From NCBI GenBank assembly GCA_018222825.1, contig JAAEZO010000007.1:1-43033 (forward strand): a stretch of DNA of 43,033 nucleotides, given 5' to 3'. The stretch's first letter is position 1, and every line of letters begins with the position of its first letter. Origin of the DNA: Gammaproteobacteria bacterium. Its GTDB lineage: Bacteria > Pseudomonadota > Gammaproteobacteria > Enterobacterales > Aeromonadaceae. Below the pieces are notes generated by a model. It was given only the letters and a program-made list of their open reading frames with translations, was not told the origin of the DNA and searched no databases. The position numbers and the translations under genes are program-made. Positions 4,941-43,033 of this stretch are shown piece by piece.

Positions 4941-6407
4941 ATGTTCCCGTTGTTTCATTTCTCCACGGAAAAAACCACCAGTCTGCAGCAGCAGCTGCGC
5001 GAGCAGATTGCCGCCGCCATCATTAACGGCAATATTCCCCAGGACAGCCCCCTGCCTTCCAGCCGCAAGCTGGCCAAACAGTTGAGTATTGCCCGTAATA
5101 CGGTGGTGCTGGCCTATGAACATCTACTGGATGACGGTTATCTGATCGCCAGGGAGCGCAGTGGGTATTTCGTCAATCCGGACATTCTTTCCCGCCAGCT
5201 GGAGATGCCGCAGCAGAGCTGCCAGAAAGAAGCAGGCTCTGCGCCGGACTGGGCACACAAGTTCAAGATCAACCCCAGCCTCCAGCACAATATCACCAAG
5301 CCCAAAGACTGGCAGAAATATCCCTATCCCTTTATCTATGGCCAGATCGATACCACCCTGTTTCCCAGCAATAACTGGCGTGAGTGTTGTCGGGATGCGG
5401 TGAGCGTACCGGCGATCCGTGACTGGGCCTCGGATCGTTTCGATGCGGATGATCCGCTGTTGATCGAGCAGATCCGTACCCGGCTGTTGCCCCGGCGCGG
5501 AGTGTGGGCCTCGGCGGATCAGATACTGGTGACGGTGGGTGCCCAACAGGCTCTGTACATGCTGGCCCGGCTGCTACTGGACAAAGACAGCACCATCGGT
5601 ATCGAGGATCCGGGTTATGTGGATATTCGCAATATCGCCACCATGAATCCGGCCCTGGTGCGTGCGCTGCCGGTCGATGAGCAGGGCTTGATCATCGACG
5701 AAGGACTCAACGGCTGCGATGCGGTGTTTACCACCCCCAGCCACCAGTGCCCGACCACGGTAACCATGCCGCTGGAACGGCGCTACGCGCTGCTGGAAAA
5801 GGCCTCCGAGCAGGACTTTCTGATCATCGAAGACGATTACGAATGCGAGAGTAACTTCAAGTCCAATCCGATACCGGCGCTGAAGAGCCTGGATACCAAC
5901 GATCGGGTGCTGTATGTCGGCAGCCTGTCCAAGACGCTGGCGCCGGGGCTGCGGCTGGGCTATCTGGTCGGGCCCGCCGAGTTGATCCGTGAGGCCAGAG
6001 CCTTGCGCCGGCTGATATTGCGTCATCCGGCCGCCAACAATCAGCGCTCGGTGGCGCTGTTTCTGGAGCGGGGTTATCACGATGCGTTGATCATGAATAT
6101 TGCCAAGGCCTACGAAGAGCGCTGGCAGGAGATGGGGGAGGCGTTGAACGAATACCTGCCTTCGTCCAGTCTTCAGCCCAGCTTCGGCGGCTCCTGCTAC
6201 TGGGTGAAAGGGCCCGAAGGCCTGGACAGCCGGCTGTTGCGCAAGGAAGCGGCCGATCGGGGCATACTGATCGAACCCGGCGATATTCATTTTCTGGAAC
6301 AGCCGGTACCGCTTAATTATTTCCGCCTCGGTTATTCCTCGATTCCGGCCAACAAGATACGACCGGGCATCAAGGCACTGGTAGAGCTGATTGAAGACAT
6401 GATCTGA
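4941..6407 (+). CDS. tauR: MocR-type (GntR-HTH/aminotransferase-like) regulator TauR
   Basis: A 488-residue fusion of an N-terminal GntR winged helix (residues ~10-80: LREQIAAAIINGNI, LPSSRKLAKQLSIARNTVVL, RSGYFV) and a fold-type I aminotransferase domain. The PLP lysine is present in SLSKTLAPGLRLGYL (Lys331), and IIEDDYECE supplies the cofactor-ring Asp, so PLP binding is expected. TauR in Rhodobacter capsulatus and Paracoccus is this type of protein and activates taurine genes. Here it lies between tauY and xsc in the same direction, rather than divergent as is common, and is closed by its own terminator. PdxR or GabR are the alternatives, but the neighbours argue for TauR. Confidence 0.87.
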   Translation: MFPLFHFSTEKTTSLQQQLREQIAAAIINGNIPQDSPLPSSRKLAKQLSIARNTVVLAYEHLLDDGYLIARERSGYFVNPDILSRQLEMPQQSCQKEAGSAPDWAHKFKINPSLQHNITKPKDWQKYPYPFIYGQIDTTLFPSNNWRECCRDAVSVPAIRDWASDRFDADDPLLIEQIRTRLLPRRGVWASADQILVTVGAQQALYMLARLLLDKDSTIGIEDPGYVDIRNIATMNPALVRALPVDEQGLIIDEGLNGCDAVFTTPSHQCPTTVTMPLERRYALLEKASEQDFLIIEDDYECESNFKSNPIPALKSLDTNDRVLYVGSLSKTLAPGLRLGYLVGPAELIREARALRRLILRHPAANNQRSVALFLERGYHDALIMNIAKAYEERWQEMGEALNEYLPSSSLQPSFGGSCYWVKGPEGLDSRLLRKEAADRGILIEPGDIHFLEQPVPLNYFRLGYSSIPANKIRPGIKALVELIEDMI

Positions 6408-6811: not shown

Positions 6812-8572
6812 ATGCCACGTATGACTCCTAGTGAAGCTTTGGTTGAAACTCTGGCGGCCAACGGTGTAACCGATGCCTTTGGCATCATGGGTTCTGCCTT
6901 TATGGATGCCATGGATATTTTCGCACCGGCCGGTATTCGACTGATCCCAACGGTTCACGAGCAGGGTGCGGGCCACATGGCCGACGGCTATTCTCGCGTC
7001 AGTGGTCGTCATGGGGTTTGTATCGCCCAGAACGGCCCCGGTATCACCAACTTCGTTACCGCTATCGCCGCCGCCTACTGGGCGCACAGCCCGGTAGTCT
7101 GTATCACTCCCGAAACCGGCTCCATGAGCCAGGGCCTGGGTGGTTTTCAGGAAGCCCAACAGCTGCCGTTCTTCGAAACCATCACCAAGTATCAGGGCCA
7201 CGTGGCCAACCCGGCCCGTATGGCCGAGATCACCGCTCGCTGTTTCGACCGTGCCATGCTGGAAAACGGCCCGACTCAGCTGAACATTCCGCGTGACTTC
7301 TTCTACGGCGACATCAACGTCGAAATTCCCCAGCCGATCCGTATCGAACGTGGTGCCGGTGGTGAGCAGAGCCTGCAGGAAGCGGCCGAGTTGCTGGCCA
7401 ATGCCAAAAACCCGGTCATCATCTCCGGTGGCGGTGTGGTGATGTCCGACGCGGTTGAAGAGTGCAAGGCGCTGGCCGAATTCCTGGGCGCGCCGGTGGT
7501 GAACAGCTACCTGCACAACGACTCCTTCCCCGCCAGCCACCCGCTGTGGTGTGGTCCTCTGGGTTACCAGGGCTCCAAGGCCGGCATGAAGCTGATTTCC
7601 CGTGCCGACGTGGTGCTGGCGCTGGGTACCCGCCTCGGTCCGTTCGGTACCCTGCCGCAGCACGGTCTGGATTACTGGCCGAAAGAAGCCAAGATCATCC
7701 AGGTTGACTGCGATGCCAAGATGCTGGGTCTGGTGAAGAAGATTTCCGTTGGTGTCTGTGGCGATGCCAAGGCCGCCGCCGTGTCCATGCTGAAGCGTCT
7801 GGAAGAGCTGAATGTACAGTGCCTGGAAACCAAAGGCGCTCGTGCCAGCGAAATCTCCGCCGAAAAAGCGGCCTGGGAACAGGAACTGGACGAGTGGATC
7901 CACGAGAAGGACGATTACTCGCTGGACATGATTGCCGAGCAGGCCGAAGAAGAAGGCAGCTTCCTGCACCCGCGTCAGGTACTGCGCGAGCTGGAAAAAG
8001 CCATGCCGGAAGATGCCATGGTGTCTACCGATATCGGTAACATCAACTCGGTGGCCAACAGCTACCTGCGCTTCGAAAAGCCGCGTTCTTTCTTCGCCGC
8101 CATGAGCTTCGGTAACTGTGGTTACGCCCTGCCGACCATCATCGGTGCCAAGGTAGCGGCACCCGAGCGTACCGCCATCTCCTACGCCGGTGACGGCGCC
8201 TGGGGCATGTCGATGATGGAAATCATGACCTGTGTACGTGAGCAGATTCCGGTCACCTCCATCGTATTCCACAACCGTCAGTGGGGCGCCGAGAAGAAGA
8301 ACCAGGTCGACTTCTACAACCGTCGCTTCGTGGCCGGCGATCTGGAAAACCCGAGCTTCGCCGAAATCGCCCGTGGCATGGGAGCCGAAGGAGTCACCAT
8401 TGACCGTCTGGAAGACGTAGGCCCGGCCCTGAAGGCCGCCTGTGCTGCCCAGAAGGAAGGCAAGACCACCGTTATCGAAATCCTGTGTACCCGCGAGCTG
8501 GGCGACCCCTTCCGTCGTGACGCCCTGTCCAAGCCGGTACGTCACCTGGAGAAGTACAAAGACTTCTGCTGA
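6812..8572 (+). CDS. xsc: Sulfoacetaldehyde acetyltransferase
   Basis: A 586-residue ThDP-dependent enzyme that converts sulfoacetaldehyde and phosphate to acetyl phosphate and sulfite, the desulfonation step for taurine and isethionate. The N-terminal pyrimidine domain has the catalytic-type Glu50 in PTVHEQGAGHMADGYSR; the central domain follows; the C-terminal domain carries the ThDP/Mg motif starting GDGAWG (Gly460-Asp461-Gly462) and ending in VFHNRQWGAEKKNQ. Xsc-typical stretches such as PETGSMSQGLGGFQEAQQLP are present and distinguish it from acetolactate synthase. Full length. Start ATG has AAAGGAAG upstream. pta follows after 193 bp containing two hairpins. Identification is very secure. 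Confidence 0.97.
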   Translation: MPRMTPSEALVETLAANGVTDAFGIMGSAFMDAMDIFAPAGIRLIPTVHEQGAGHMADGYSRVSGRHGVCIAQNGPGITNFVTAIAAAYWAHSPVVCITPETGSMSQGLGGFQEAQQLPFFETITKYQGHVANPARMAEITARCFDRAMLENGPTQLNIPRDFFYGDINVEIPQPIRIERGAGGEQSLQEAAELLANAKNPVIISGGGVVMSDAVEECKALAEFLGAPVVNSYLHNDSFPASHPLWCGPLGYQGSKAGMKLISRADVVLALGTRLGPFGTLPQHGLDYWPKEAKIIQVDCDAKMLGLVKKISVGVCGDAKAAAVSMLKRLEELNVQCLETKGARASEISAEKAAWEQELDEWIHEKDDYSLDMIAEQAEEEGSFLHPRQVLRELEKAMPEDAMVSTDIGNINSVANSYLRFEKPRSFFAAMSFGNCGYALPTIIGAKVAAPERTAISYAGDGAWGMSMMEIMTCVREQIPVTSIVFHNRQWGAEKKNQVDFYNRRFVAGDLENPSFAEIARGMGAEGVTIDRLEDVGPALKAACAAQKEGKTTVIEILCTRELGDPFRRDALSKPVRHLEKYKDFC

Positions 8573-8765: not shown

Positions 8766-9713
8766 ATGCTGAGTACTATTCCAAGGGAATGCCCGCCCGG
8801 CTTGCTGGCGCAGGCCCGTCAACACCCCCGCGTCACCACTGTGGTGATCAACCCGGTTAACGAAGTCTCGCTGACCAGTGCTCGTCTGGCCCAGGAACAG
8901 GGACTGATCGAACCGATACTGGTGGGCGATATCGACACCATGCGCCGTCAGGCCGATGCCATGGGCTGGTCGCTTGACGAGGTGCGTCTGGTACAGGCTG
9001 CCGACGAAACCGAAGCGGCCCGGCTGGGCGTGGCGCTGGTCAGCCAGAATGAGGCGCATTCCATCATGAAGGGGCATGTGCACACAGATATTCTGCTGCG
9101 GGCCGTGCTCAACAAGGCAGCCGGATTGCGTACCGACAGCCGGCTGAGCCACGTGTTCTACATGACGGTGCCCGGCAGCAACAAGGCGCTGTGCATCACC
9201 GATGCGGTGATCAACGTGCAGCCCTCGGTGCTGGACAAGTTGCATATTGCCCGCAACGCCATCGGGTTCATGCATGCCCTGGGCAAGGATGAACCCAGGG
9301 TGGCGCTGCTCTCGGGTACCGAAGAGGTGAGCAAGAGCATGCCGTCCAGTCAGGACGCGGCCGAGCTGGTCAAACTGGCCGCCATGGGCGCGCTGCCCGG
9401 CGCCGTGGTGGAAGGCCCGCTGGCGTTCGACAATGCGGTCTCGCCCGAGGCGGCCGCCATCAAGGGCATTACCGGCAAGGTGCCCGGGCAGGTGGATATT
9501 CTGCTGGTGCCGAATCTGGAGTCGGGCAACTTTCTGTTCAAGCAGATGGTGTATTTCATGGGCGCCACCGCCGCTGGTCTGGTGCTGGGTGCCCGGGTGC
9601 CGATTATTCTGACCTCGCGTGCCGATCCGCCCGAGGCCCGTCTGGCCTCCTGCGCACTGGCATCCTTGTATTGTGCTCATCAGCTTTCGCCTGCACTGGT
9701 GCAGGCATCCTGA
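8766..9713 (+). CDS. pta: Phosphate acetyltransferase of sulfonate catabolism
   Basis: A 315-residue short-form Pta/Ptb-family protein converting the acetyl phosphate made by Xsc into acetyl-CoA. The family signature is clear: VALVSQNEAHSIMKGHVHTD, SRLSHVFYMTVPG, VALLSGTEEVS, ALPGAVVEGPLAFDNAVS and the late DILLVPNLESGNFLFKQM. It lacks the long N-terminal regulatory DRTGG domain of enterobacterial Pta, as is normal in xsc-linked genes. Start at 8766 was preferred over an upstream in-frame ATG at 8727 because of AGGAAGGG just before it and because the extra residues are not Pta-like. Phosphate butyryltransferase is the only alternative and is unlikely next to xsc. Confidence 0.92.
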   Translation: MLSTIPRECPPGLLAQARQHPRVTTVVINPVNEVSLTSARLAQEQGLIEPILVGDIDTMRRQADAMGWSLDEVRLVQAADETEAARLGVALVSQNEAHSIMKGHVHTDILLRAVLNKAAGLRTDSRLSHVFYMTVPGSNKALCITDAVINVQPSVLDKLHIARNAIGFMHALGKDEPRVALLSGTEEVSKSMPSSQDAAELVKLAAMGALPGAVVEGPLAFDNAVSPEAAAIKGITGKVPGQVDILLVPNLESGNFLFKQMVYFMGATAAGLVLGARVPIILTSRADPPEARLASCALASLYCAHQLSPALVQAS

Positions 9714-14462: not shown

Positions 14463-15806
14463 CTAATAGCCCAGCAGTCTGGGCAGGAACAGGGTGATCT
14501 GCGGTATGTAGGCGATGATAAACACCGAGATTACCGACATGACGGCGAAGGGCAGGGCGCGAACCGATATTTCCTCGATGGAAGTACCGGACACCCCGGA
14601 GGCGATAAACAGGTTTTCGCCCAGTGGCGGGGTCTGGAAGCCGATGGACAAACAGCACACCACCACAATGCCGAAGTGAACCGGATCTATGCCCAGGTTA
14701 TAGGCCACCGGCAGCAGTACCGGCGTCAGTATCATGATGGCCGCCAGGGTTTCCATGAACATGCCGACAAACAGCAGGAAGAAGATGATCAGCGCCCAGA
14801 TCAGATACAGGTTGGTGGTCATCTCCAGCATGGAGGCGGCCACGATGGCCGGAATCTGGTTCTCGACCAGCAGACGGCCGAACACGGTAGCGGTAAACAG
14901 GATTAACAGCACTCGGCCGGTCAGCCAGGTGGTGGTTTCCAGTGAACGCATCACGTCCTTGAACTTCAGTTCCCGATGTACGAAGAAACCGATCACCAGG
15001 GTATAGAAGATGGCGACTATGGCCGATTCGGTGGGGGTGAACAGGCCGCTGTAGATGCCACCCAGAATCACCACCGGCGCCAGTATTGACCAGAATCCCT
15101 TGCGCAGGGCGGTGCGGGTTACGCTGGCCGACCAGCCTTCGGTGGTGCCCTTGTAGCCGTGCTTGCGGCACAGGAAGTAGTTCATGATCAGCAGGCCACC
15201 GGCCAGCACCATGCCCGGCAGCACGCCGGCGATAAACAGTTTGGGGATGGAAACCGACTGAAACTGACCGTATTGGGCAATAGCTTCAGGCGGCGCCATC
15301 ATGCCCATGGCGGAAATACCGAAGATCACCATGGGAATGGAAGGGGGTATCACCACGCCCAGGCCACCGGACGAGGCGGTCACGGCCGACGCATAGCCCT
15401 TGCCGTAACCGCGGTCGATCATGGCCGGTATCATCAGCATGCCCACGGCGGCGGTGGTGGCCGGGCCGGAACCGGAAATGGCACCGAAGAACATGCAGGC
15501 CATAACGGTGGCGGCCGACATGCCGCCGGTAAAGGAACCGGCAAAGCTTTCGGCCAAATCGACCAGCCGCTTCGAGATGCCTGCGGCTTCCATCAGGGCC
15601 CCGGCCAGAATAAAGGCGGGTAGCGCCATCAACGGAAAGGATCCAACCGAGGTAAAGGCGATCTGCACGAACTTGATGGGGTTCTCGTCCAGATAAATAA
15701 ATGACGCCAGCGCGGAGACTCCCAAAGACACACTGATGGGAGCGCCGAGCAGCAGCAACAGCAGAAAGCTCCCGAACAGGATCATGACGACGGATGATTC
15801 AACCAT
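14463..15806 (-). CDS. TRAP transporter large permease subunit (DctM family)
   Basis: A 447-residue integral membrane protein of the DctM/TRAP-L family with about 12 helices. Landmarks are the N-terminal LFGSFLLLLLLGAPISVSLG, FGAISGSGPATTAAVGMLMIP (the ion/substrate loop), GGLGVVIPPSIPMVIFG and the late GFQTPPLGENLFIASGVSG. It is the channel-forming, Na+-coupled subunit that works with the DctQ and DctP proteins encoded just upstream. Its start overlaps the dctQ end by 8 bp, indicating translational coupling. Substrate is discussed under dctP. Confidence 0.94.
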   Translation of the reverse strand: MVESSVVMILFGSFLLLLLLGAPISVSLGVSALASFIYLDENPIKFVQIAFTSVGSFPLMALPAFILAGALMEAAGISKRLVDLAESFAGSFTGGMSAATVMACMFFGAISGSGPATTAAVGMLMIPAMIDRGYGKGYASAVTASSGGLGVVIPPSIPMVIFGISAMGMMAPPEAIAQYGQFQSVSIPKLFIAGVLPGMVLAGGLLIMNYFLCRKHGYKGTTEGWSASVTRTALRKGFWSILAPVVILGGIYSGLFTPTESAIVAIFYTLVIGFFVHRELKFKDVMRSLETTTWLTGRVLLILFTATVFGRLLVENQIPAIVAASMLEMTTNLYLIWALIIFFLLFVGMFMETLAAIMILTPVLLPVAYNLGIDPVHFGIVVVCCLSIGFQTPPLGENLFIASGVSGTSIEEISVRALPFAVMSVISVFIIAYIPQITLFLPRLLGY

Positions 15807-16398
15807 GGGTATGCTCCTGCCTTAACGTGGTTGTAGATGTAGAAGAATTCGTATCATTTTTAGAAGAAGAGTTTTCAATCAGCTTCTCTACTTCCAGTGA
15901 TTCGGGATCTCGAATGTCGATGCCCTTGACCAGCTTGTAATAGTTGACCTGCAGTATGCGAATGGTCATCAGCGCGAAGGCGATGGGCAGTATCATGTAC
16001 ACATATTTCATCGGAAAGCCCAGGGTCTGGGATTTCCAGAACAGGTTCATCTTGTTGAACACGAAGTCGTAGCTCAAGAAAACAAAGTAGCCGTTGAAGC
16101 AAACCCAGATCAGATCCGCGATGGCCTCGGAAATCACGGCGACGATGGGCGGAAAGAATTTGAACTGAAAGGTGACTCTGTTGTGGGCGGCAAGCTTGGT
16201 GGCGTAGCTGGCGCCGAAATAAACGAACCACACAAACATGTAGGTCGACAGCTCCTCGCTCCAGGACAGGGAATGATCGAATACCTGACGCGATATGATC
16301 TGGATAAAGAGCAGAATGACGAACGAGGCAAGCAGGGTTCTGCAGATCACGTTTTCGATGTTGTCGATGATTTTGAATATCAGTTTGCCGATGGTCAT
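15799..16398 (-). CDS. TRAP transporter small permease subunit (DctQ family)
   Basis: A 199-residue membrane protein with four predicted helices; NVICRTLLASFVILLFIQIISRQVF and SWSEELSTYMFVWFVYFGAS are the DctQ signature. It stabilises the DctM subunit. The C-terminal ~45 residues (from GIDIRDPESLEVEK onward) form a charged, Ser/Thr/Asn-rich cytoplasmic tail, longer than in typical DctQ proteins. Start at 16398 was chosen over the 16455 extension because GGGAGA lies 8 bp upstream. An intercistronic hairpin sits between it and dctP. Confidence 0.9.
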   Translation of the reverse strand: MTIGKLIFKIIDNIENVICRTLLASFVILLFIQIISRQVFDHSLSWSEELSTYMFVWFVYFGASYATKLAAHNRVTFQFKFFPPIVAVISEAIADLIWVCFNGYFVFLSYDFVFNKMNLFWKSQTLGFPMKYVYMILPIAFALMTIRILQVNYYKLVKGIDIRDPESLEVEKLIENSSSKNDTNSSTSTTTLRQEHTHG

Positions 16399-16418
16399 GG
16401 CGGTTTCTCCCTGAAAAA

Positions 16419-16442
16419 AGTGCACCCGCGCAGGAGTGCACT
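16419..16442 (-). promoter_or_regulatory. Stem-loop between dctP and dctQ
   Basis: AGTGCAC (16419-16425) and GTGCACT (16436-16442) pair perfectly around 10 nt. Placed directly after the binding-protein gene, a usual position for hairpins that leave more binding-protein mRNA than permease mRNA. No T run. Confidence 0.65.
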
Positions 16443-16459
16443 CCGGTTGCAGCAACGGT

Positions 16460-17476
16460 TTAGATGGTGTCGCGTCCCAGGGAAGTCAGGATTTCATTCA
16501 GCTTCTCTTTGCCACCCAACTGCTCATAGTACTTGGGCCACACCTGGTTGATTGCTTTCTCCATCCACTCTTTTTCGCCATTGGCCGGCTCGGTGATCTC
16601 CATGCCACCGGCGGCCAGCTCGGCCTTGATCTTGTCTTCCTGCTCCACCAGCCATTTGGCACTGTGCTCAGTGGCGGCCTGGCCGGCTTCCAGAATAGCC
16701 TGCTGTATATCGGCGGGCTGAGACTGATAAACGGCTTCGGATACCACCAGCGGCTCGATGGAGAACAGATAGCGAATATCGGTGATGTACTTCTGTACCT
16801 CATCAAACTTCATGGAAGAAACGGTCAGATAAGGGTTGTCCTGACCATCGACCACGCCCAGCTGCAGGCCGGTAAAGGTTTCCGACCAGGCCATCGGCGT
16901 CGGGTTGATGCCCCAGGCACGGTAGGTATCGATCATGATTTCGTTCTGAGGAACACGGATCTTGAGATCCTGAAGATCCTCCAGTTTCTGCACCGGATGT
17001 TTGGAGTTGGTCAGTACCCTGAAACCGGTATAAGTCCAGCCGACGATGCGTACACCGGCGTCGCGGATGGTATTTTCGGTCAGTTGTTTACCGATTTCGC
17101 CCTGAGTCAGGGCCACGGCGTCATCCAGGCTCTGCATCATGTAGGGCAGGGTCAGTACACCAACGGTAGGAGAGAAGGGAGTGACGTTGTTGATAGCCAG
17201 AATCGAGAAATCCAGCAGGCCCATGGAAGCATCGTTGATGGTGGCCTGTTCGTCGCCCAGCTGACCGTTGAGGAACAGCTTGGTGTCATGCTTGCCGCCG
17301 GTCTTGGCCTTGAACTCTTCCGAGAACTTCAATCCCAGTTGGTGCTGTGCACTGCCCGCGCCGTCACCGACGGCCACCCTGAAGGTGTCGGCATGAGCCA
17401 GTGAACTGGCGACTGCCGCTGCCGTGAAGCACAGGGCGACCGAGAGGGGTTTTACAAAGCGTTGCTTGAATATCAT
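16460..17476 (-). CDS. TRAP transporter solute-binding protein (DctP family)
   Basis: A 338-residue periplasmic binding protein. Residues 1-29 form a Sec signal peptide ending SLAHA before DTF. TRAP features follow: FRVAVGDGAGSAQHQLGLKFSEEF is a strand-helix opening, LPYMMQ a core segment, LKIRVPQNEIMIDTYRAWG carries the conserved Arg that binds a carboxylate or, in sulfonate systems, possibly a sulfonate, and GVVDGQDNP is the DctP signature. First gene of dctP-dctQ-dctM-usp. Candidate TauR boxes precede it, so taurine is the favoured substrate; ectoine-type solutes (because of the Usp gene) or isethionate/dihydroxypropanesulfonate are alternatives. Start at 17476 fits the signal peptide and a GGAG upstream. 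Confidence 0.92.
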   Translation of the reverse strand: MIFKQRFVKPLSVALCFTAAAVASSLAHADTFRVAVGDGAGSAQHQLGLKFSEEFKAKTGGKHDTKLFLNGQLGDEQATINDASMGLLDFSILAINNVTPFSPTVGVLTLPYMMQSLDDAVALTQGEIGKQLTENTIRDAGVRIVGWTYTGFRVLTNSKHPVQKLEDLQDLKIRVPQNEIMIDTYRAWGINPTPMAWSETFTGLQLGVVDGQDNPYLTVSSMKFDEVQKYITDIRYLFSIEPLVVSEAVYQSQPADIQQAILEAGQAATEHSAKWLVEQEDKIKAELAAGGMEITEPANGEKEWMEKAINQVWPKYYEQLGGKEKLNEILTSLGRDTI

Positions 17477-17782
17477 GGCTTCTTGCTCCAGTTTCTGATG
17501 CTCTGCCACCAATGGCTGAGCGTTGACCTTCCGTGATGCCAGGAGAGTGAAACTCTTTGCTTCATTCGCCTACAGCTGGCTATGTTTTTCATTTACGCGG
17601 TTTCCTGGCCGGCCGGGTTGCTGCTTTTCTGCCGCGCCAGGATGTTACACCCATCGTCAATACTCGAATCTGGGCTCTTAAATAGTTAGGGCCACTTGTG
17701 TTTTCAGACTGGGGCCAGTATTAAAGTTCTTTATATTCAGTAGATTATAATTTTACATTGTAAAATTAATGTTACTTTTTGG
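17477..17782 (-). promoter_or_regulatory. dctP promoter region with candidate TauR repeats and a 19-bp palindrome
   Basis: On the minus strand CTGGCCCCAGTC (17718-17707) and GTGGCCCTAACT (17695-17684) are direct repeats sharing TGGCCC at an offset of exactly 23 bp, the same geometry as before xsc and tauX. Further upstream, AATTTTACATTGTAAAATT (17749-17767) is a perfect palindrome about 20 bp from the cobT stop. The 306-bp gap has no ORF. Confidence 0.5.
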
Positions 17783-38126: not shown

Positions 38127-39035
38127 TCAGGAATAACCGTGATTGTACAGCTCGAGCAGGTACTTCCAGAAGGTATCTACCTCGGGCTTGACCGTATGCC
38201 GGAATCGATAAAGCAGGATCTTCAGTGCGACCGCGTTCAGCGGCGCGTCCAGCACCACCAGCTGCTTGTTGTGCAGTTCGCTCTGGATCAGGCTGGACGG
38301 TAGCCAGGCTACCCCATAACCCTGAACCGCCATCGCCTTCAGCCCCTCGGCCAGAGCATTTTCGCAGACCGTCGTATATTGAATGTCGGGTGGAAGTTTG
38401 CTGAGACACTGCTCCTTGACGATGCTCCCCAGATAGGAATCATCGGGGTAGGCAAGCAGTTTGAAGGGCACATGGCTGTCTATTGAATAGAGTGGCGAGC
38501 CATTGCCCTTCACCGCCGATACCGGCACCAGCTTGTCGGTGCCGACCTGAATACAGCTGGTATCGTTGCGTGACAGCTGGACGATGTTTTCGCCGGAAGA
38601 AAAACTGAGCAGAAAATCGCCCATCCCCGCCATGAAAGACTCCATCACGTCGTGCAGGTTGCCGGCATTCAGCTTCACCAGCGTGGTGCCTACCAGCGGT
38701 TCCAGCGTTCTTATCCAGTGCGGAAAGAACGACACCGCCGGCGAATGCTGGGAAAAAAACACCAGGCTTTGGCGTGATTCCTGTCCCTGCAGTCGTTCCC
38801 GTACCCGGTAGGTATCGTGGATCATCCGTTTCGCTTCTTCAACGAACGCCAGGCCGGTCACGGTGAGGGTGGTCGGATATTTGTCCCGGTCGACCAGGGA
38901 AATGCCGAGCCAGTTTTCCAGCGAACGAATACGCCGGCTAAAGGCGGGCTGCGTCACGAAGCGTGCTTCGGCTGCCTTCGAAAAACTGCCGTTTTCACTC
39001 AATGCCACAAAGTCTTTTAACCACTTTAATTCCAT
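38127..39035 (-). CDS. LysR-family regulator divergent from cuyA
   Basis: A 302-residue LysR-type regulator. N-terminal winged helix ELKWLKDFVALSENGSFSKA, AARFVTQPAFSRRIRSLE-like recognition helix and the dimer helix to ~residue 85, then a two-lobed effector domain. AAAGGA lies 5 bp before the ATG at 39035; the TTG at 39044 is less likely. It is divergent from cuyA over a 160-bp gap that holds TTGG-TGAAG-CCAA, so it most likely controls the cuyA operon with a C3 sulfonate as inducer. A regulator gene named cuyR accompanies cuyA elsewhere; whether this is its orthologue I cannot tell. Confidence 0.9.
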   Translation of the reverse strand: MELKWLKDFVALSENGSFSKAAEARFVTQPAFSRRIRSLENWLGISLVDRDKYPTTLTVTGLAFVEEAKRMIHDTYRVRERLQGQESRQSLVFFSQHSPAVSFFPHWIRTLEPLVGTTLVKLNAGNLHDVMESFMAGMGDFLLSFSSGENIVQLSRNDTSCIQVGTDKLVPVSAVKGNGSPLYSIDSHVPFKLLAYPDDSYLGSIVKEQCLSKLPPDIQYTTVCENALAEGLKAMAVQGYGVAWLPSSLIQSELHNKQLVVLDAPLNAVALKILLYRFRHTVKPEVDTFWKYLLELYNHGYS

Positions 39036-39064
39036 TCCAATCAATCCTTTGTGCGTTTTTTAAT

Positions 39065-39195
39065 GCCGGGTATACCGAAAAGTAATCGTTGGTGAAGCCA
39101 AGATAGCATTGGTCGATCAGGGCATCCTATTTCAGTATGTGGATGTTATCGGATTGTACTTGTGATGTTCGCAAAATAATAAAGGAGTGTTATTT
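39065..39195. promoter_or_regulatory. LysR-cuyA intergenic control region
   Basis: Contains GGTATACC (39070-39077), and TTGG-TGAAG-CCAA (39089-39101), an interrupted dyad of LysR-box size. The cuyA SD AAAGGAG (39181-39187) is 8 bp before the ATG at 39196, which decides that start over the in-frame GTG at 39187. Confidence 0.45.
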
Positions 39196-40206
39196 ATGCT
39201 TTTGGCCCGTTACCCGCGTCTTCATTTCGCCCACCTCAATACCCCGCTCGAGCCGATGCCTCAGCTGACCAGGTTGCTGGATGGTCCCACCCTGTGGATC
39301 AAGCGTGATGACTGTACCGGCCTGGCCGGTGGCGGCAACAAGACCCGCAAGCTGGAATTCCTGATGGCCGATGCTTTGGAGCAGGGCGCCGACACCATCA
39401 TTACCCAGGGCGCGACCCAGTCCAACCATGCCCGCCAGACCGTGGCCATCGCCACCAAGCTGGAAATGGATTGTCATATCCTGCTGGAAGATCGCACCGG
39501 ATCCGAAGATGCCGATTACAACTACAACGGCAACGTCATGCTGGATCAGCTGTTTGGCGGCCAGCTGCGCAAGTATCCCGGCGGTACCGACATGAATGCG
39601 GCGATGGAAGAGCTGGCGGCCAAGCTGAAAGCCGAAGGCAAGAAGCCGTATATCATTCCCGGTGGTGGCTCCAACGAGATTGGTGCCTTGGGGTACGTCA
39701 ATTGTGCGCTGGAACTGCTGGGACAGGCCAATGATCGCGGACTGCGTATCGACCATCTGGTGCACGCCACCGGCTCGGCCGGCACCCAGGCTGGTCTGGT
39801 GACCGGCCTGTACGGCAGCAACAGCCAGATCCCGGTACTCGGCATCGGCGTGCGGGTACCCCGTGAGCAGCAGGAAGCCAATGTGTTCCGTCTGGCAGAA
39901 CGTACCGCCGAGAAACTGGGCATTCCCGGTGCTATCAAGCGCGAAGACGTGGTCGCCAACTGTGACTATGTTGGTGCCGGTTACGGCATTCCGGCCGAAA
40001 GTACTTTGGAAGCCATCGAGCTGTTTGCCCGCCACGAAGGCATTCTGCTGGATCCGGTCTATTCCGGTAAAGGCGCTGCCGGCCTTATCGACTTGATTCG
40101 CAAGGGCCATTTCAAGAAAGGCGAGAACATCGTGTTCCTGCATACCGGTGGCAGCCAGGCGCTGTTTGGCTACCGCGATGTCTTCAATTTGCCTAAATAT
40201 TGTTAA
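39196..40206 (+). CDS. cuyA: L-cysteate sulfo-lyase
   Basis: A 336-residue fold-type II PLP enzyme related to D-cysteine desulfhydrase and ACC deaminase. Features: [24 protein letters not shown] with PLP Lys49, [29 protein letters not shown] and [11 protein letters not shown] (phosphate loop), [12 protein letters not shown] and FLHTGG at the end. CuyA releases sulfite and ammonia from L-cysteate to give pyruvate. D-cysteine desulfhydrase is the near homologue, but the following hpsN-like gene and the LysR neighbour favour CuyA. First gene of the operon cuyA-hpsN-aminotransferase(-racemase). Confidence 0.88.
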
Positions 40207-40216
40207 GGTGCTTTGT

Positions 40217-40237
40217 CGGCTCCTCCTGAAGGAGCCG
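40217..40237 (+). promoter_or_regulatory. Stem-loop between cuyA and hpsN
   Basis: CGGCTCCT (40217-40224), loop CCTGA, AGGAGCCG (40230-40237). No T tract, so readthrough into hpsN is expected. Confidence 0.65.
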
Positions 40238-40294
40238 GCAAGGGCAGCATGCCTTGTGGCTAACCAGAGCTTTCTTTTTAACAGGTGTCATACC

Positions 40295-41608
40295 ATGGAA
40301 TATCTTAAAAGAGCGGCGGCAGAAGACGAAGTTGCGCAGGAAGACGAGCGTATTCAGGCGGTGGTGAAGGATATGCTGATCCGCATCAAGCAACGGGGCG
40401 AGCCGGTTGTACGTGAATACGCCAAACAGTTTGATCAGTGGCAGGGTGACTTCGTGCTGTCCGAGCAGAAGAAGCTGGCGCTGATCGAGCAGGTACCCCA
40501 GCGGGTCAAGGACGATATCGACTTTGCCCATCGTCAGATCCGGCGTTTCGCCGAAGCCCAGCGTGACAGCTTGCAACCCTTTGAAATTGAAACCGAAGCC
40601 GGAGTTCGTCTGGGCCAGCAGATTCTGCCGGTTGACTGTGCCGGTTGTTATGTACCCGGCGGCCGTTATGCCCACGCCGCGTCGGCACTGATGAGTGTGG
40701 CCACGGCCAAGGCGGCCGGCGTGCCGTTTATCGTGGCCTGTTCACCACCACGGGGCGACAGCATCAATCCAGCCGTGGCCTATGCCATGCATGTGGCCGG
40801 TGCCGATGTGATTCTGGAAATGGGCGGCGTGCATGCCATCGCCACCATGGCCTATGGCCTATTTACCGGCAAGCCGGCCGATATTCTGGTGGGACCGGGC
40901 AATGCCTACGTGGCCGAGGCCAAGCGTATGCTGTTTGGCGAGGTGGGTATCGATGTGTTCGCTGGCCCCACCGAGTCGGCGATTATTGCCGATAAAGATG
41001 CCGACCCCATGACCATAGCGGTGGATCTGGTGTCGCAGGCCGAGCACGGTCCCAACTCACCGGTCTGGTTGTTTACCGACTGCCGGGAGCTGGGTGAGCA
41101 GGTGCTCGAGATCATGCCCAAGGTGATTGCCGACATGCCCAACGCCGATGTCTGCGAAGCGGCCTGGCGTGATCACGGTGTGGTGATTCTGGGTGACAGC
41201 CGCGAAGAAGTGGCCAAAATCAGTGACGAATGGGCTTGTGAGCACCTGCAGGTGCTGGCCGACGATCTGGAGTGGTGGAAAGCCAATCTGAACAACTACG
41301 GCTCCCTGTTCCTGGGCGAAGGCAGCACGGTGTCGCACGGCGACAAGTGCTCCGGCACCAACCATATTCTGCCGACCAGGAAAGCCGCACGTTACAGCGG
41401 CGGGCTGAATGTGCAGAAGTTCATGAAAGTGCTGACTTATCAGGAGCTGAGCGAAGAGGCCAATCTGGTGTTCAGCGCGGCCGGTTCCCGCATCTCCCGT
41501 ACCGAAGGCATGGAAGGTCATGCCCGGGCCTGCGACTGGCGCTTGCGCAAGTACTTCCCCGAAACCGAGTGGGATTTCAACGTCTATAACCAAAAGCGCT
41601 ACTGCTGA
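40295..41608 (+). CDS. hpsN: Sulfopropanediol dehydrogenase HpsN-like (histidinol dehydrogenase family)
   Basis: A 437-residue NAD-dependent, zinc-containing HisD-superfamily enzyme. YVPGGRYAHAASALMS, GPGNAYVAEAKRMLFGEVG and DVFAGPTESAIIAD are the family core; zinc ligands are seen in DLVSQAEHGPNS (Gln and His) and EGMEGHARACDWR (His). HpsN oxidises the terminal CH2OH of (R)-2,3-dihydroxypropane-1-sulfonate to sulfolactate in a four-electron step analogous to histidinol oxidation. There is no other his gene around and cuyA precedes it, so a biosynthetic HisD is unlikely. Start at 40295 chosen over an ORF extension from 40148 that overlaps cuyA. Substrate might instead be an amino-alcohol sulfonate. 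Confidence 0.86.
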   Translation: MEYLKRAAAEDEVAQEDERIQAVVKDMLIRIKQRGEPVVREYAKQFDQWQGDFVLSEQKKLALIEQVPQRVKDDIDFAHRQIRRFAEAQRDSLQPFEIETEAGVRLGQQILPVDCAGCYVPGGRYAHAASALMSVATAKAAGVPFIVACSPPRGDSINPAVAYAMHVAGADVILEMGGVHAIATMAYGLFTGKPADILVGPGNAYVAEAKRMLFGEVGIDVFAGPTESAIIADKDADPMTIAVDLVSQAEHGPNSPVWLFTDCRELGEQVLEIMPKVIADMPNADVCEAAWRDHGVVILGDSREEVAKISDEWACEHLQVLADDLEWWKANLNNYGSLFLGEGSTVSHGDKCSGTNHILPTRKAARYSGGLNVQKFMKVLTYQELSEEANLVFSAAGSRISRTEGMEGHARACDWRLRKYFPETEWDFNVYNQKRYC

Positions 41609-41616
41609 GTCAGACA

Positions 41617-41640
41617 GGCAGGTGCCCACCGGCACCTGCC
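41617..41640 (+). promoter_or_regulatory. Stem-loop between hpsN and the aminotransferase gene
   Basis: GGCAGGTGCC (41617-41626), loop CACC, GGCACCTGCC (41631-41640), perfect 10-bp stem. It ends just before the GGAGAG ribosome-binding site of the next gene and has no T tract, so it could influence translation. Confidence 0.7.
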
Positions 41641-41652
41641 CGGAGAGAAGCC

Positions 41653-42861
41653 ATGACGACATTCAATAAGTCTTTCACCCAGCAAGAGCCCATTCCTGAA
41701 GATGGCATCGAGCAGGCCATCGCAGTCATGCGCAGTGGCCGTCTGCATCGGTACAATTCTCTGGCCGGCGAGCCGACGGAAACCGAATTGCTGGAGCGGG
41801 AATTTGCCGATTATCTGGGCAGCCGCTATTGCCTTGCCTGTGCCTCGGGTGGCTATGCGCTGCACATTGCCATGCGTACGGTTGGGGTTCAGCCCGGCGA
41901 CAAGGTGTTGTGCAACGCCTTTACCCTGGCACCGGTTCCCGGTGCCATCCACAATGCCGGCGCTTTGCCGGTACTGGTGGAAACCACCGATGATTTCACC
42001 ATCGACCTCGACGATCTTGAACGCAAGGCCGCAAGCGACGAGGTGCATTATCTGCTGTTGTCCCATATGCGTGGTCACCTGGCCGATATGGACCGGCTGA
42101 TGGACATCTGCGAGCGCCACCACATCATGGTGATCGAAGATTGTGCCCACACCATGGGTGCCAACTGGAAGGGCCGCAAGAGCGGTACCTTCGGCCGGGT
42201 AGCCTGTTTCAGCACCCAGACTTACAAGCATCTCAATTCCGGCGAGGGCGGCTTTCTGACCACCAACGACGACGATGTAATGGCCCGGGCTATTATCTAT
42301 TCCGGCTCTTACATGCTTTACGAGCGGCATCTGGCGGCACCGCCGAAAGAAGCCTTTGCCCGTATTCGTTTTGAAACGCCCAATTACAGCGGTCGAATGG
42401 ACAACCTTCGTGCGGCTATTCTGCGTCCTCAACTCGCGTCCCTCGATGTGCAATGCCGGCGCTGGAACGACCTCTACCGAGTTACAGCCGAAGGGCTGAG
42501 CCAGGTTGCCGGCATTCGTCTGCCTACTCGGCCGGCGGCGGAGAGCTTTGTGGGCAGCTCCATTCAGTTTTCTCTACCGCAACAGTCGCCGGCGGCCATT
42601 GCCCGTTTTATTGCCCGCTGTGAAGCGCGGGGAGTGCCACTGAAATGGTTTGGCGATGCGGATCCCAAGGGCTACACCAGCCGTTACGACAGCTGGCAGT
42701 ACATGGGGCCGATGCCCGATTTGCCGGAAACTCAACGGGTGTTGGCAACCATGTGCGACATGCGGCTGCCGCTGACCTTTGATGAGGCGGATTGCCGACT
42801 GATTACCCGGATTATTGCCGACGTTTTTGAAGAGGTTTGCGGCTCATCAGGGCACCAATAG
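41653..42861 (+). CDS. DegT/DnrJ/EryC1-family PLP aminotransferase
   Basis: A 402-residue fold-type I aminotransferase of the DegT/DnrJ/EryC1 family. CASGGYALHIAMRTVGVQPGD, NAFTLAPVPGAIHNAGALPV, MVIEDCAHTMGANWKGRK and FSTQTYKHLNSGEGGFLTT with PLP Lys192 are visible, so it should be an active aminotransferase rather than a PLP-less relative. Family members usually aminate sugar ketones, but no sugar or cell-wall gene is nearby. Following cuyA and hpsN with GGAGAG at its start and 44 bp spacing, it probably transaminates a C3 sulfonate: sulfopyruvate to cysteate, or cysteinolate to its ketone. This is inference. Confidence 0.88.
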   Translation: MTTFNKSFTQQEPIPEDGIEQAIAVMRSGRLHRYNSLAGEPTETELLEREFADYLGSRYCLACASGGYALHIAMRTVGVQPGDKVLCNAFTLAPVPGAIHNAGALPVLVETTDDFTIDLDDLERKAASDEVHYLLLSHMRGHLADMDRLMDICERHHIMVIEDCAHTMGANWKGRKSGTFGRVACFSTQTYKHLNSGEGGFLTTNDDDVMARAIIYSGSYMLYERHLAAPPKEAFARIRFETPNYSGRMDNLRAAILRPQLASLDVQCRRWNDLYRVTAEGLSQVAGIRLPTRPAAESFVGSSIQFSLPQQSPAAIARFIARCEARGVPLKWFGDADPKGYTSRYDSWQYMGPMPDLPETQRVLATMCDMRLPLTFDEADCRLITRIIADVFEEVCGSSGHQ

Positions 42862-42945
42862 TTCCCTGCACTGCGGGGTGCTCCGAACATGGCACTGCTC
42901 CGGATTGTCGAATTCGGAGATGGTTATTTGAAATGGATGCATGAA

Positions 42946-43033
42946 ATGAGTGAACAGACGGTTGGTGTGATAGGTGGCATGGGACCGGAAGCCACGGTGG
43001 ACCTGATGCGGCGGGTGATTGCCGCCACCCCGG
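42946..43033 (+). CDS. Aspartate/glutamate racemase family protein, N-terminal fragment
   Basis: Only the first ~29 codons are inside the window: SEQTVGVIGGMGPEATVDLM is the hallmark N-terminus of the Asp/Glu/hydantoin racemase superfamily, RacD-like branch. Alternative starts at 42937 and further upstream are in frame; 42946 fits family N-termini best. It is 85 bp after the aminotransferase in the same direction, so probably the fourth gene of the C3-sulfonate operon. It may racemise cysteate, an aspartate analogue; that is inference. Truncated by the window edge. Confidence 0.8.
   Translation, partial: MSEQTVGVIGGMGPEATVDLMRRVIAATP

Follow-up and report, generated by a model that had tools for sequence, protein, structure and literature searches.

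Which compound is degraded by the operon at the right-hand end of contig JAAEZO010000007.1? The window analysed here is the whole stretch of 43,033 nucleotides, and the contig ends at 43033, within the last gene of the array. At this end a LysR-type regulator gene on the minus strand is followed on the plus strand by cuyA, an HpsN-like gene, a DegT-family aminotransferase gene and 29 codons of a racemase gene. The original prediction, made from the letters alone, had described the plus-strand genes as a tight array and offered two explanations for it: (a) sulfolactate made by the HpsN-like enzyme is oxidised elsewhere to sulfopyruvate, which the DegT protein aminates to cysteate for CuyA, or (b) cysteinolate is the substrate, oxidised to cysteate by the HisD-like enzyme, with the racemase feeding CuyA. 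Profile scores and coordinates bear out the array, and (b) is the better supported of the two explanations. The operon is probably a self-contained catabolic set for cysteinolate (2-amino-3-hydroxypropane-1-sulfonate). The basis for this is the identity of the genes, their conserved catalytic residues and the conserved gene set, from which we infer all substrates.

Genes of the operon

The locus comprises the following features, among which TRAP denotes a tripartite ATP-independent periplasmic transporter and PLP pyridoxal phosphate.

38127-39044, minus strand: LysR-type regulator (PF00126 and PF03466), divergent from the operon
39196-40206, plus strand: cuyA, PLP-dependent D-cysteate sulfo-lyase (NF052482)
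40295-41608, plus strand: HpsN-like (HisD-fold) Zn/NAD dehydrogenase, proposed cysteinolate dehydrogenase (match to 8v35, motif)
41653-42861, plus strand: DegT/DnrJ/EryC1/StrS-family aminotransferase, proposed cysteinolate aminotransferase (PF01041, Lys192)
42862-42945, plus strand: junction without the TRAP genes (DctP, DctQ, DctM) present in six relatives (comparison with loci L003-L008)
42946-43033, plus strand: truncated 5' part of cuyB (cysteate racemase) at the end of the contig (NF052483; orthologues in L003-L008)

The gaps between cuyA, the HpsN-like gene, the DegT gene and the racemase gene are 88, 44 and 84 bases. The probable ATG of cuyA at 39196 is preceded by AAGGAG, the stop ends at 40206, and the product scores 565.2 bits against the curated equivalog cut-off of 450 of NCBIfam NF052482, which makes it a member of that family. 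The 29 residues of the racemase score 39.0 bits with the CuyB model NF052483, under its cut-off of 190 because only 24 of the 225 model positions are present. Since the contig stops at 43033, the right-hand side was read in relatives, the nearest named ones by DegT being Oceanisphaera, Oceanimonas and Zobellella. The fragment is 82-100% identical to the orthologues in L003-L008, and by the score of the full orthologue of Oceanisphaera arctica (L003; 283.5 bits with NF052483) what had been called an Asp/Glu racemase is more exactly CuyB-like.

A four-gene module in three proteobacterial classes

Apart from the window, 18 loci in gamma-, beta- and alphaproteobacteria have the same four genes (cuyA, DegT, cuyB and HpsN-like) together on a single strand, and their arrangement is therefore more than chance. 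With the HpsN-like gene written as hisD and ABC standing for an ATP-binding cassette transporter, three gene orders occur: cuyA-hisD-DegT-(TRAP)-cuyB at seven loci, cuyA-DegT-cuyB-(ABC)-hisD at ten and hisD-DegT-cuyA-cuyB at one (Polaromonas). Among 75 genomes of the window's family, the same nine hold both the DegT protein (E up to 1e-80) and the HpsN-like protein (E up to 1e-70), and one of the nine has a second HisD-like copy (47%). When a plasmid collection was searched with DegT by tblastn, 12 records were matched, ten of them at more than 50% identity (Pseudomonas MPC6, two Paracoccus, Leisingera, Ancylobacter, Shinella, two Mesorhizobium, Ensifer and Polaromonas). All ten hold cuyA, the racemase gene and the HpsN-like gene nearby; a record with a 39% match shows a different gene context. 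The complete set is found in two further genomes (L110 and L120).

In the six relatives (L003-L008) the order is LysR (minus strand), cuyA, HpsN-like, DegT, TRAP DctP-DctQ-DctM and cuyB, with LysR orthologues of 77-90% identity at the equivalent position. A divergent LysR gene also adjoins cuyA in L036, L039-L044, L110 and L120. Transport genes are frequent: a TRAP, TauABC-like or other marker ABC transporter lies within or beside the set at 16 of the 18 complete loci, and the TauA-like protein of the Shinella module (L040) scores 317 bits with TIGR01729 (cut-off 304). Exporter genes of the YeiH or TauE type occur in 8 of the 18 stretches (L036, L037, L038, L040, L042, L044, L045 and L120). 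Reading on to the right of 43033 had been proposed as a check for transporters, dehydrogenases or sulfite exporters. In the relatives L003-L008 this check returned a TRAP transporter and, at two loci, a linked D-2-hydroxyacid dehydrogenase gene.

The HpsN-like dehydrogenase

The nearest solved structure to the HpsN-like protein is 8v35, the sulfopropanediol 3-dehydrogenase CpHpsN (527 bits; the best-scoring histidinol dehydrogenase structure reaches 248), and the protein is 58% identical to C. pinatubonensis HpsN over 94% of its length. A GRY(A/S)H motif and residue roles have been given for HpsN (PMC11382572). The window protein has GRYAH and keeps the equivalents of CpHpsN His126, Gln248, His251, Glu318, His319, Asp352, Lys353, His359 and His411; the position of CpHpsN Ser226 is Thr, as in most HpsN. 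GRYxH and these nine residues are likewise kept in all 18 module enzymes of the tree set, in a copy from a Ruegeria module that has no DegT, and in 28 of 28 hpsOP-linked enzymes. With the sulfonate-binding motif and the catalytic residues kept, a sulfonate is well supported as the substrate of the module enzyme. Moreover, CpHpsN has been crystallised with L-cysteate, bound essentially like R-sulfolactate, and HisD holds an amino group at the zinc site where HpsN holds a hydroxyl (PMC11382572).

A tree of 69 HisD-like proteins was built, from which matches covering less than 80% of the marker and extracts under 380 residues were excluded; identical proteins were kept once, and L045 and L131, with HisD-like matches in two pieces, lie outside it. 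The module enzymes form three groups, none of which contains an hpsOP-linked enzyme: eight from gammaproteobacteria (support 100/100), eight others from alphaproteobacterial plasmids, L110 and L120, joined by the Ruegeria copy of the module without DegT (100/96), and two from Paracoccus (100/100). The module label requires four changes (gains or losses) on this tree, so that several recruitments, or fewer plus losses, are possible. Zobellella maritima has another HisD-like gene (L034, 47% identity), which was considered as a true HpsN and rejected, as it belongs to a third ('sdr') group whose 13 members all have Leu or Met at the His126 position, that of the motif histidine.

The proposed pathway

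In the pathway proposed here, cysteinolate would be imported by a TRAP or taurine-type ABC transporter, the dedicated TRAP being missing at the window locus. The HpsN-like Zn/NAD enzyme would oxidise the primary alcohol of (R)-cysteinolate to L-cysteate in two NAD-dependent steps, comparable to those of HisD on histidinol. By our derivation L-cysteate is expected from (R)-cysteinolate, the priority order at C2 being equal. CuyB would then convert L-cysteate to D-cysteate and CuyA would cleave D-cysteate to pyruvate, ammonia and sulfite, in keeping with the roles described for these two enzymes (PMC11382572), and the sulfite would be exported. The DegT protein would interconvert cysteinolate and 3-hydroxy-2-oxopropanesulfonate and so let the ketone, and possibly the other enantiomer, enter. 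This last step is the least certain part of the pathway. The DegT-less Ruegeria module fits direct oxidation with an accessory role for DegT, and in that organism (Ruegeria SCSIO 43209) a stand-alone DegT elsewhere in the genome may act as a substitute.

Several points weigh against cysteinolate as the substrate. Absences in the window's own assembly (3.19 Mb in 330 contigs) are weak evidence, because it is about 85% complete (84.8%). The DegT protein is not strictly needed for (R)-cysteinolate, and its subfamily is commoner outside the module than in it: matches above 50% identity were found in 27 genomes besides the window's in a phylum sample of 398, two of them being module loci, and in 11 others in a class sample of 369, two of which adjoin cuyA. 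The active site of the HpsN-like enzyme looks indistinguishable from that of the R-2,3-dihydroxypropane-1-sulfonate (DHPS) dehydrogenase HpsN, the single differing position between module and hpsOP-linked enzymes, Ala389, being a weak one, and it cannot be told from the residues whether DHPS or cysteinolate would be bound. Given this active site and the three separate places of the module enzymes within the HpsN clade, plain DHPS oxidation is possible. The D-2-hydroxyacid dehydrogenase encoded downstream of cuyB in O. arctica (L003) and O. psychrotolerans (L005) could be a sulfolactate dehydrogenase, which would favour explanation (a).

In addition, all 18 complete sets were reached through DegT, which biases their count, and loci were for this reason also sought from the side of CuyB and of the HpsN-like protein. 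Of the 25 CuyB matches listed from 69 plasmid records, four that have no close DegT counterpart were inspected. Ruegeria SCSIO 43209 carries LysR-cuyA-cuyB-hisD without DegT, Sulfitobacter M368 and Paracoccus aminophilus show only cuyA-cuyB over the stretch inspected, and R. pomeroyi has the racemase gene without an adjoining cuyA. The HpsN-like query reached the modules of three genomes (G090, G165 and G723), all three with DegT; its other matches were viewed with 1.5 kb on each side.

Alternative routes

The best surviving alternative, which we regard as unlikely, starts from DHPS. The HpsN-like enzyme would oxidise R-DHPS to R-sulfolactate, an unlinked dehydrogenase would produce sulfopyruvate, DegT would aminate this to L-cysteate, in the place of the aminotransferase ('Coa') that is missing from the HpsN-CuyA scheme, and CuyB and CuyA would complete the route. 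Its best evidence is the D-2-hydroxyacid dehydrogenase gene of the two Oceanisphaera loci. The family of this enzyme includes the (S)-sulfolactate dehydrogenase SlcC. Moreover, the catalytic residues of the module enzyme are those of HpsN, and the DegT subfamily is near-universal in presumed Rhodobacteraceae, where the HpsNOP-CuyA route has been described. That route, with an unidentified aminotransferase, is the scheme published for R. pomeroyi (PMC11382572, section 2.8), and the same section uses the neighbourhood of hpsO and hpsP as a criterion for HpsN.

This neighbourhood was sought by tblastn (E up to 1e-12, matches reduced to the best non-overlapping ones per locus) at 22 loci, namely the 18 complete ones, the window, two cut by contig ends and one without DegT. 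HpsO, HpsP, SuyA and SuyB had no match in the stretches at hand of any of the 22. The route would require a sulfolactate dehydrogenase, yet none of the nine genomes in the window's family that carry the module has a ComC (PF02615) match over the cut-off, in a search that did not include the membrane-type SlcD. Seven of the nine have weak PF02615 matches under the cut-off, and a control search gave matches over it in 4 of 14 known genomes. In the same nine genomes the best HpsP matches reach only 33-39%, and a close match (91-100%) to the downstream dehydrogenase exists in the two Oceanisphaera genomes only, the other seven being at or below 40%. A ComC-like protein (42%) is encoded 8.8 kb upstream of the module in L043.

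A further difficulty for the DHPS route is that two genomes have an hpsNOP cluster apart from the module, and a second HpsN for the same step would be redundant there. In Paracoccus seriniphilus the two are on different plasmids, the cluster being TRAP-hpsN-hpsO-hpsP-suyAB, and G723 has both the module and an hpsN-hpsO-hpsP cluster. In G815 an hpsN-hpsO-hpsP cluster occurs together with a cuyA-DegT module that runs off the end of a contig. Explanation (a) of the original prediction is the less supported one.

A second alternative, which we hold to be improbable, takes 3-hydroxy-2-oxopropanesulfonate itself as the substrate. The HpsN-like enzyme would oxidise it to sulfopyruvate and DegT would form cysteate, or DegT would act first and give cysteinolate. 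Such a route would employ all four enzymes and require no further dehydrogenase. However, we know of no ketone substrate for HisD-type enzymes. In this enzyme type the substrate's C2 amino or hydroxyl group sits at the zinc (PMC11382572, section 2.6), and the taurine-type binding protein (TIGR01729) of the Shinella module suggests an amino-sulfonate instead. It is very unlikely that the operon serves cysteate alone, with HpsN-like and a sugar-type DegT in unrelated chemistry, for although cuyA-cuyB pairs do stand alone in the stretches viewed of Sulfitobacter M368 and P. aminophilus, the other two genes accompany cuyA and cuyB in three orders and three proteobacterial classes, the whole set is present in 10 of 10 plasmid records with a DegT above 50%, and DegT falls under every sugar-aminotransferase cut-off matched, with no polysaccharide genes annotated in the ten plasmid stretches viewed. 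Cysteinolate is retained here as the preferred substrate.

The DegT aminotransferase within and outside the module

The DegT protein is a clear member of its family (PF01041, 195.2 bits against a cut-off of 19.8). Its PLP lysine had been predicted to be intact, and Lys192 does align with the lysine of the perosamine synthase structures 3bn1 and 3dr7 (Ala in 3dr4) and is kept in at least 97% of a 55-row DegT subfamily. In these rows 97 positions are kept at that level, including the PLP lysine and several basic residues. An AlphaFold2 model from eight sequences was poor (mean predicted local distance difference test score 54.9). A function as nucleotide-sugar enzyme was considered and rejected: the protein lies under the cut-offs of all 10 NCBIfam models matched (best 129.5 bits against 420, LegC family), none of the models for LegC, PseC, ArnB, WecE, RfbH and DesI reaching its curated cut-off, and no polysaccharide or sugar genes are annotated in the ten plasmid stretches around DegT. 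The suggestion that DegT enzymes of sulfonate operons are a less described branch is supported, DegT being a regular member of the module.

Outside the module the subfamily is found in 229 of the 275 genomes of a single family (f56; E up to 1e-100). This family is probably Rhodobacteraceae, since one of its HpsN proteins pairs (100/98) with that of Rhodobacteraceae bacterium SC52 and its gene content agrees. In 24 of 24 loci examined (among L099-L126) a gph-like gene starts at most 2.2 kb upstream of the stand-alone DegT gene, and glmU and glmS were identified next to it by eye. The DegT proteins of these loci form one clade (100/99) in a tree of 72 of 73 rows, rows of up to 340 residues having been dropped (L137). 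A second DegT subfamily, 35-41% identical (L046, L103 and L143-L152), is shared by many of these f56 genomes and also occurs in other gene surroundings.

A third setting is the gammaproteobacterial locus L127 (G608:C14:22000-41900), a taurine/isethionate-type cluster in which a DegT of 68% identity to the window protein accompanies TauABC, a MocR regulator, TauE, a class III aminotransferase and an IsfD-like reductase. The short-chain dehydrogenase/reductase (SDR) of this cluster scores 346 bits to the sulfoacetaldehyde reductase 6ixj, its top match being an uncharacterised Pseudomonas SDR, 2nwq (380 bits). DegT was considered as the taurine aminotransferase of L127 and rejected, as the translated gap shows a class III aminotransferase (by eye) in that slot.

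All three settings would suit an aminosulfonate aminotransferase, and their simplest common denominator would be an enzyme acting on the dihydroxyacetone-like 3-hydroxy-2-oxopropanesulfonate. A role as sulfopyruvate aminotransferase would fit the stand-alone DegT too; most modules are without a linked source of sulfopyruvate. A broader scenario can be put forward tentatively, and it is a doubtful one. In it the module would be a dedicated cysteinolate operon, for which HpsN enzymes were apparently recruited more than once as the dehydrogenase, members of the DegT subfamily would act as cysteinolate (3-hydroxy-2-oxopropanesulfonate) aminotransferases, and the stand-alone DegT beside gph-glmU-glmS in presumed Rhodobacteraceae would be the missing enzyme of cysteinolic acid biosynthesis for the head group of the sulfur-containing aminolipid (SAL).

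Comparison with known systems

The module shares with the HpsNOP-(SlcD)-CuyA system of Roseobacteraceae (Ruegeria pomeroyi, Roseovarius nubinhibens; PMC11382572) an HpsN-type dehydrogenase, CuyA, cysteate as the last sulfonate and the release of sulfite. It differs in that its stretches are without hpsO and hpsP, that linked candidates for a sulfolactate dehydrogenase are found only in L003, L005 and L043 (the last at 8.8 kb), that cuyB and DegT are included, and that its HpsN-like enzymes lie in separate groups of the tree. With the cysteate degradation genes of Sulfitobacter M368 and P. aminophilus it has the divergent LysR, cuyA and cuyB in common, to which it adds HpsN-like and DegT, that is, one alcohol oxidation and one amination or deamination. 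With the histidinol dehydrogenase/HpsN family (PF00815) the module dehydrogenase shares the fold family, the zinc ligands, the catalytic Glu-His and Asp and the HpsN-specific GRYxH, whereas its proposed substrate would be an analogue of DHPS (with an amino group) and of histidinol (with a sulfonate group). Assimilation of taurine nitrogen employs TauABC, IsfE/TauE, IsfD and a taurine aminotransferase. A cluster of this kind, L127, contains the 68% identical DegT but is unlike the module in having the class III aminotransferase and no cuyA or HpsN-like match in the stretch examined.

Cysteinolic acid as the proposed substrate

Cysteinolic acid is reported to be abundant in marine microalgae (PMC8703288) and to form the head group of the SAL sulfonolipid of roseobacters (PMC11631085). 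R. pomeroyi is reported to contain it, and its biosynthetic route was described as still to be established (PMC8319176). In the literature searched no gene for bacterial degradation of cysteinolic acid was named, the 2022 review of cysteinolic acid and the 2024 revision of SAL being outside its scope and possibly holding such a proposal, and no title or abstract described a cuyA-HpsN-like-DegT-cuyB module. A compact gene set, carried by this marine-type bacterium and reshuffled across others of soil and sea, most likely degrades this abundant algal sulfur compound. The module supplies four named genes and a marker for searching marine data, as well as named hosts (Oceanimonas baumannii, Oceanisphaera arctica, Leisingera methylohalidivorans and Paracoccus seriniphilus). 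It should be of interest to ask with these which organisms consume cysteinolate and which enzyme makes it, since the module makes both questions testable.

The TRAP junction and neighbouring genes

No TRAP genes are present between DegT and cuyB in the window. As far as 42874 its sequence corresponds to what follows DegT in L003 and L005, and from 42912 onwards to what precedes cuyB in L004 (and similarly L003). The approximately 37 bases in between resemble neither flank closely, and a hairpin (42898-42919) lies partly within them. The absence may be a real deletion or an assembly error. The closest TRAP large permease elsewhere in the window's assembly is only 59-64% identical to that of the relatives' cuy operon; it is part of a second TRAP transporter at 14463-17512 on the minus strand, which might serve as a replacement importer.

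The start listed for the LysR gene is a TTG at 39044, with an in-frame ATG three codons inside. A promoter and terminator scan of 38900-43033 gave counts close to the shuffled mean, and no signal from it was used.

Elsewhere, the Polaromonas P1-6 plasmid (L045) has cuyA and HpsN-like matches in two pieces each, absent from the annotation table, which may reflect a decaying module or sequence errors. Behind cuyB, L003 (15178-17535) and L005 encode a GltP/DctA-type symporter together with the D-2-hydroxyacid dehydrogenase. In four alphaproteobacterial modules an alpha/beta hydrolase gene lies behind the HpsN-like gene (L040, 15039-15839; L042, L043 and L044), and its product might release cysteinolate from an acyl conjugate or lipid.

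The window carries a second sulfonate locus about 30 kb to the left of the operon. It encodes the sulfoacetaldehyde acetyltransferase Xsc (6812-8572; TIGR03457, 1026 bits against 676), which among the 22 loci was found in the window only, at a distance of 35 kb, followed by a phosphate acetyltransferase-type protein (8766-9713), and a MocR-type regulator is encoded at 4941-6407.

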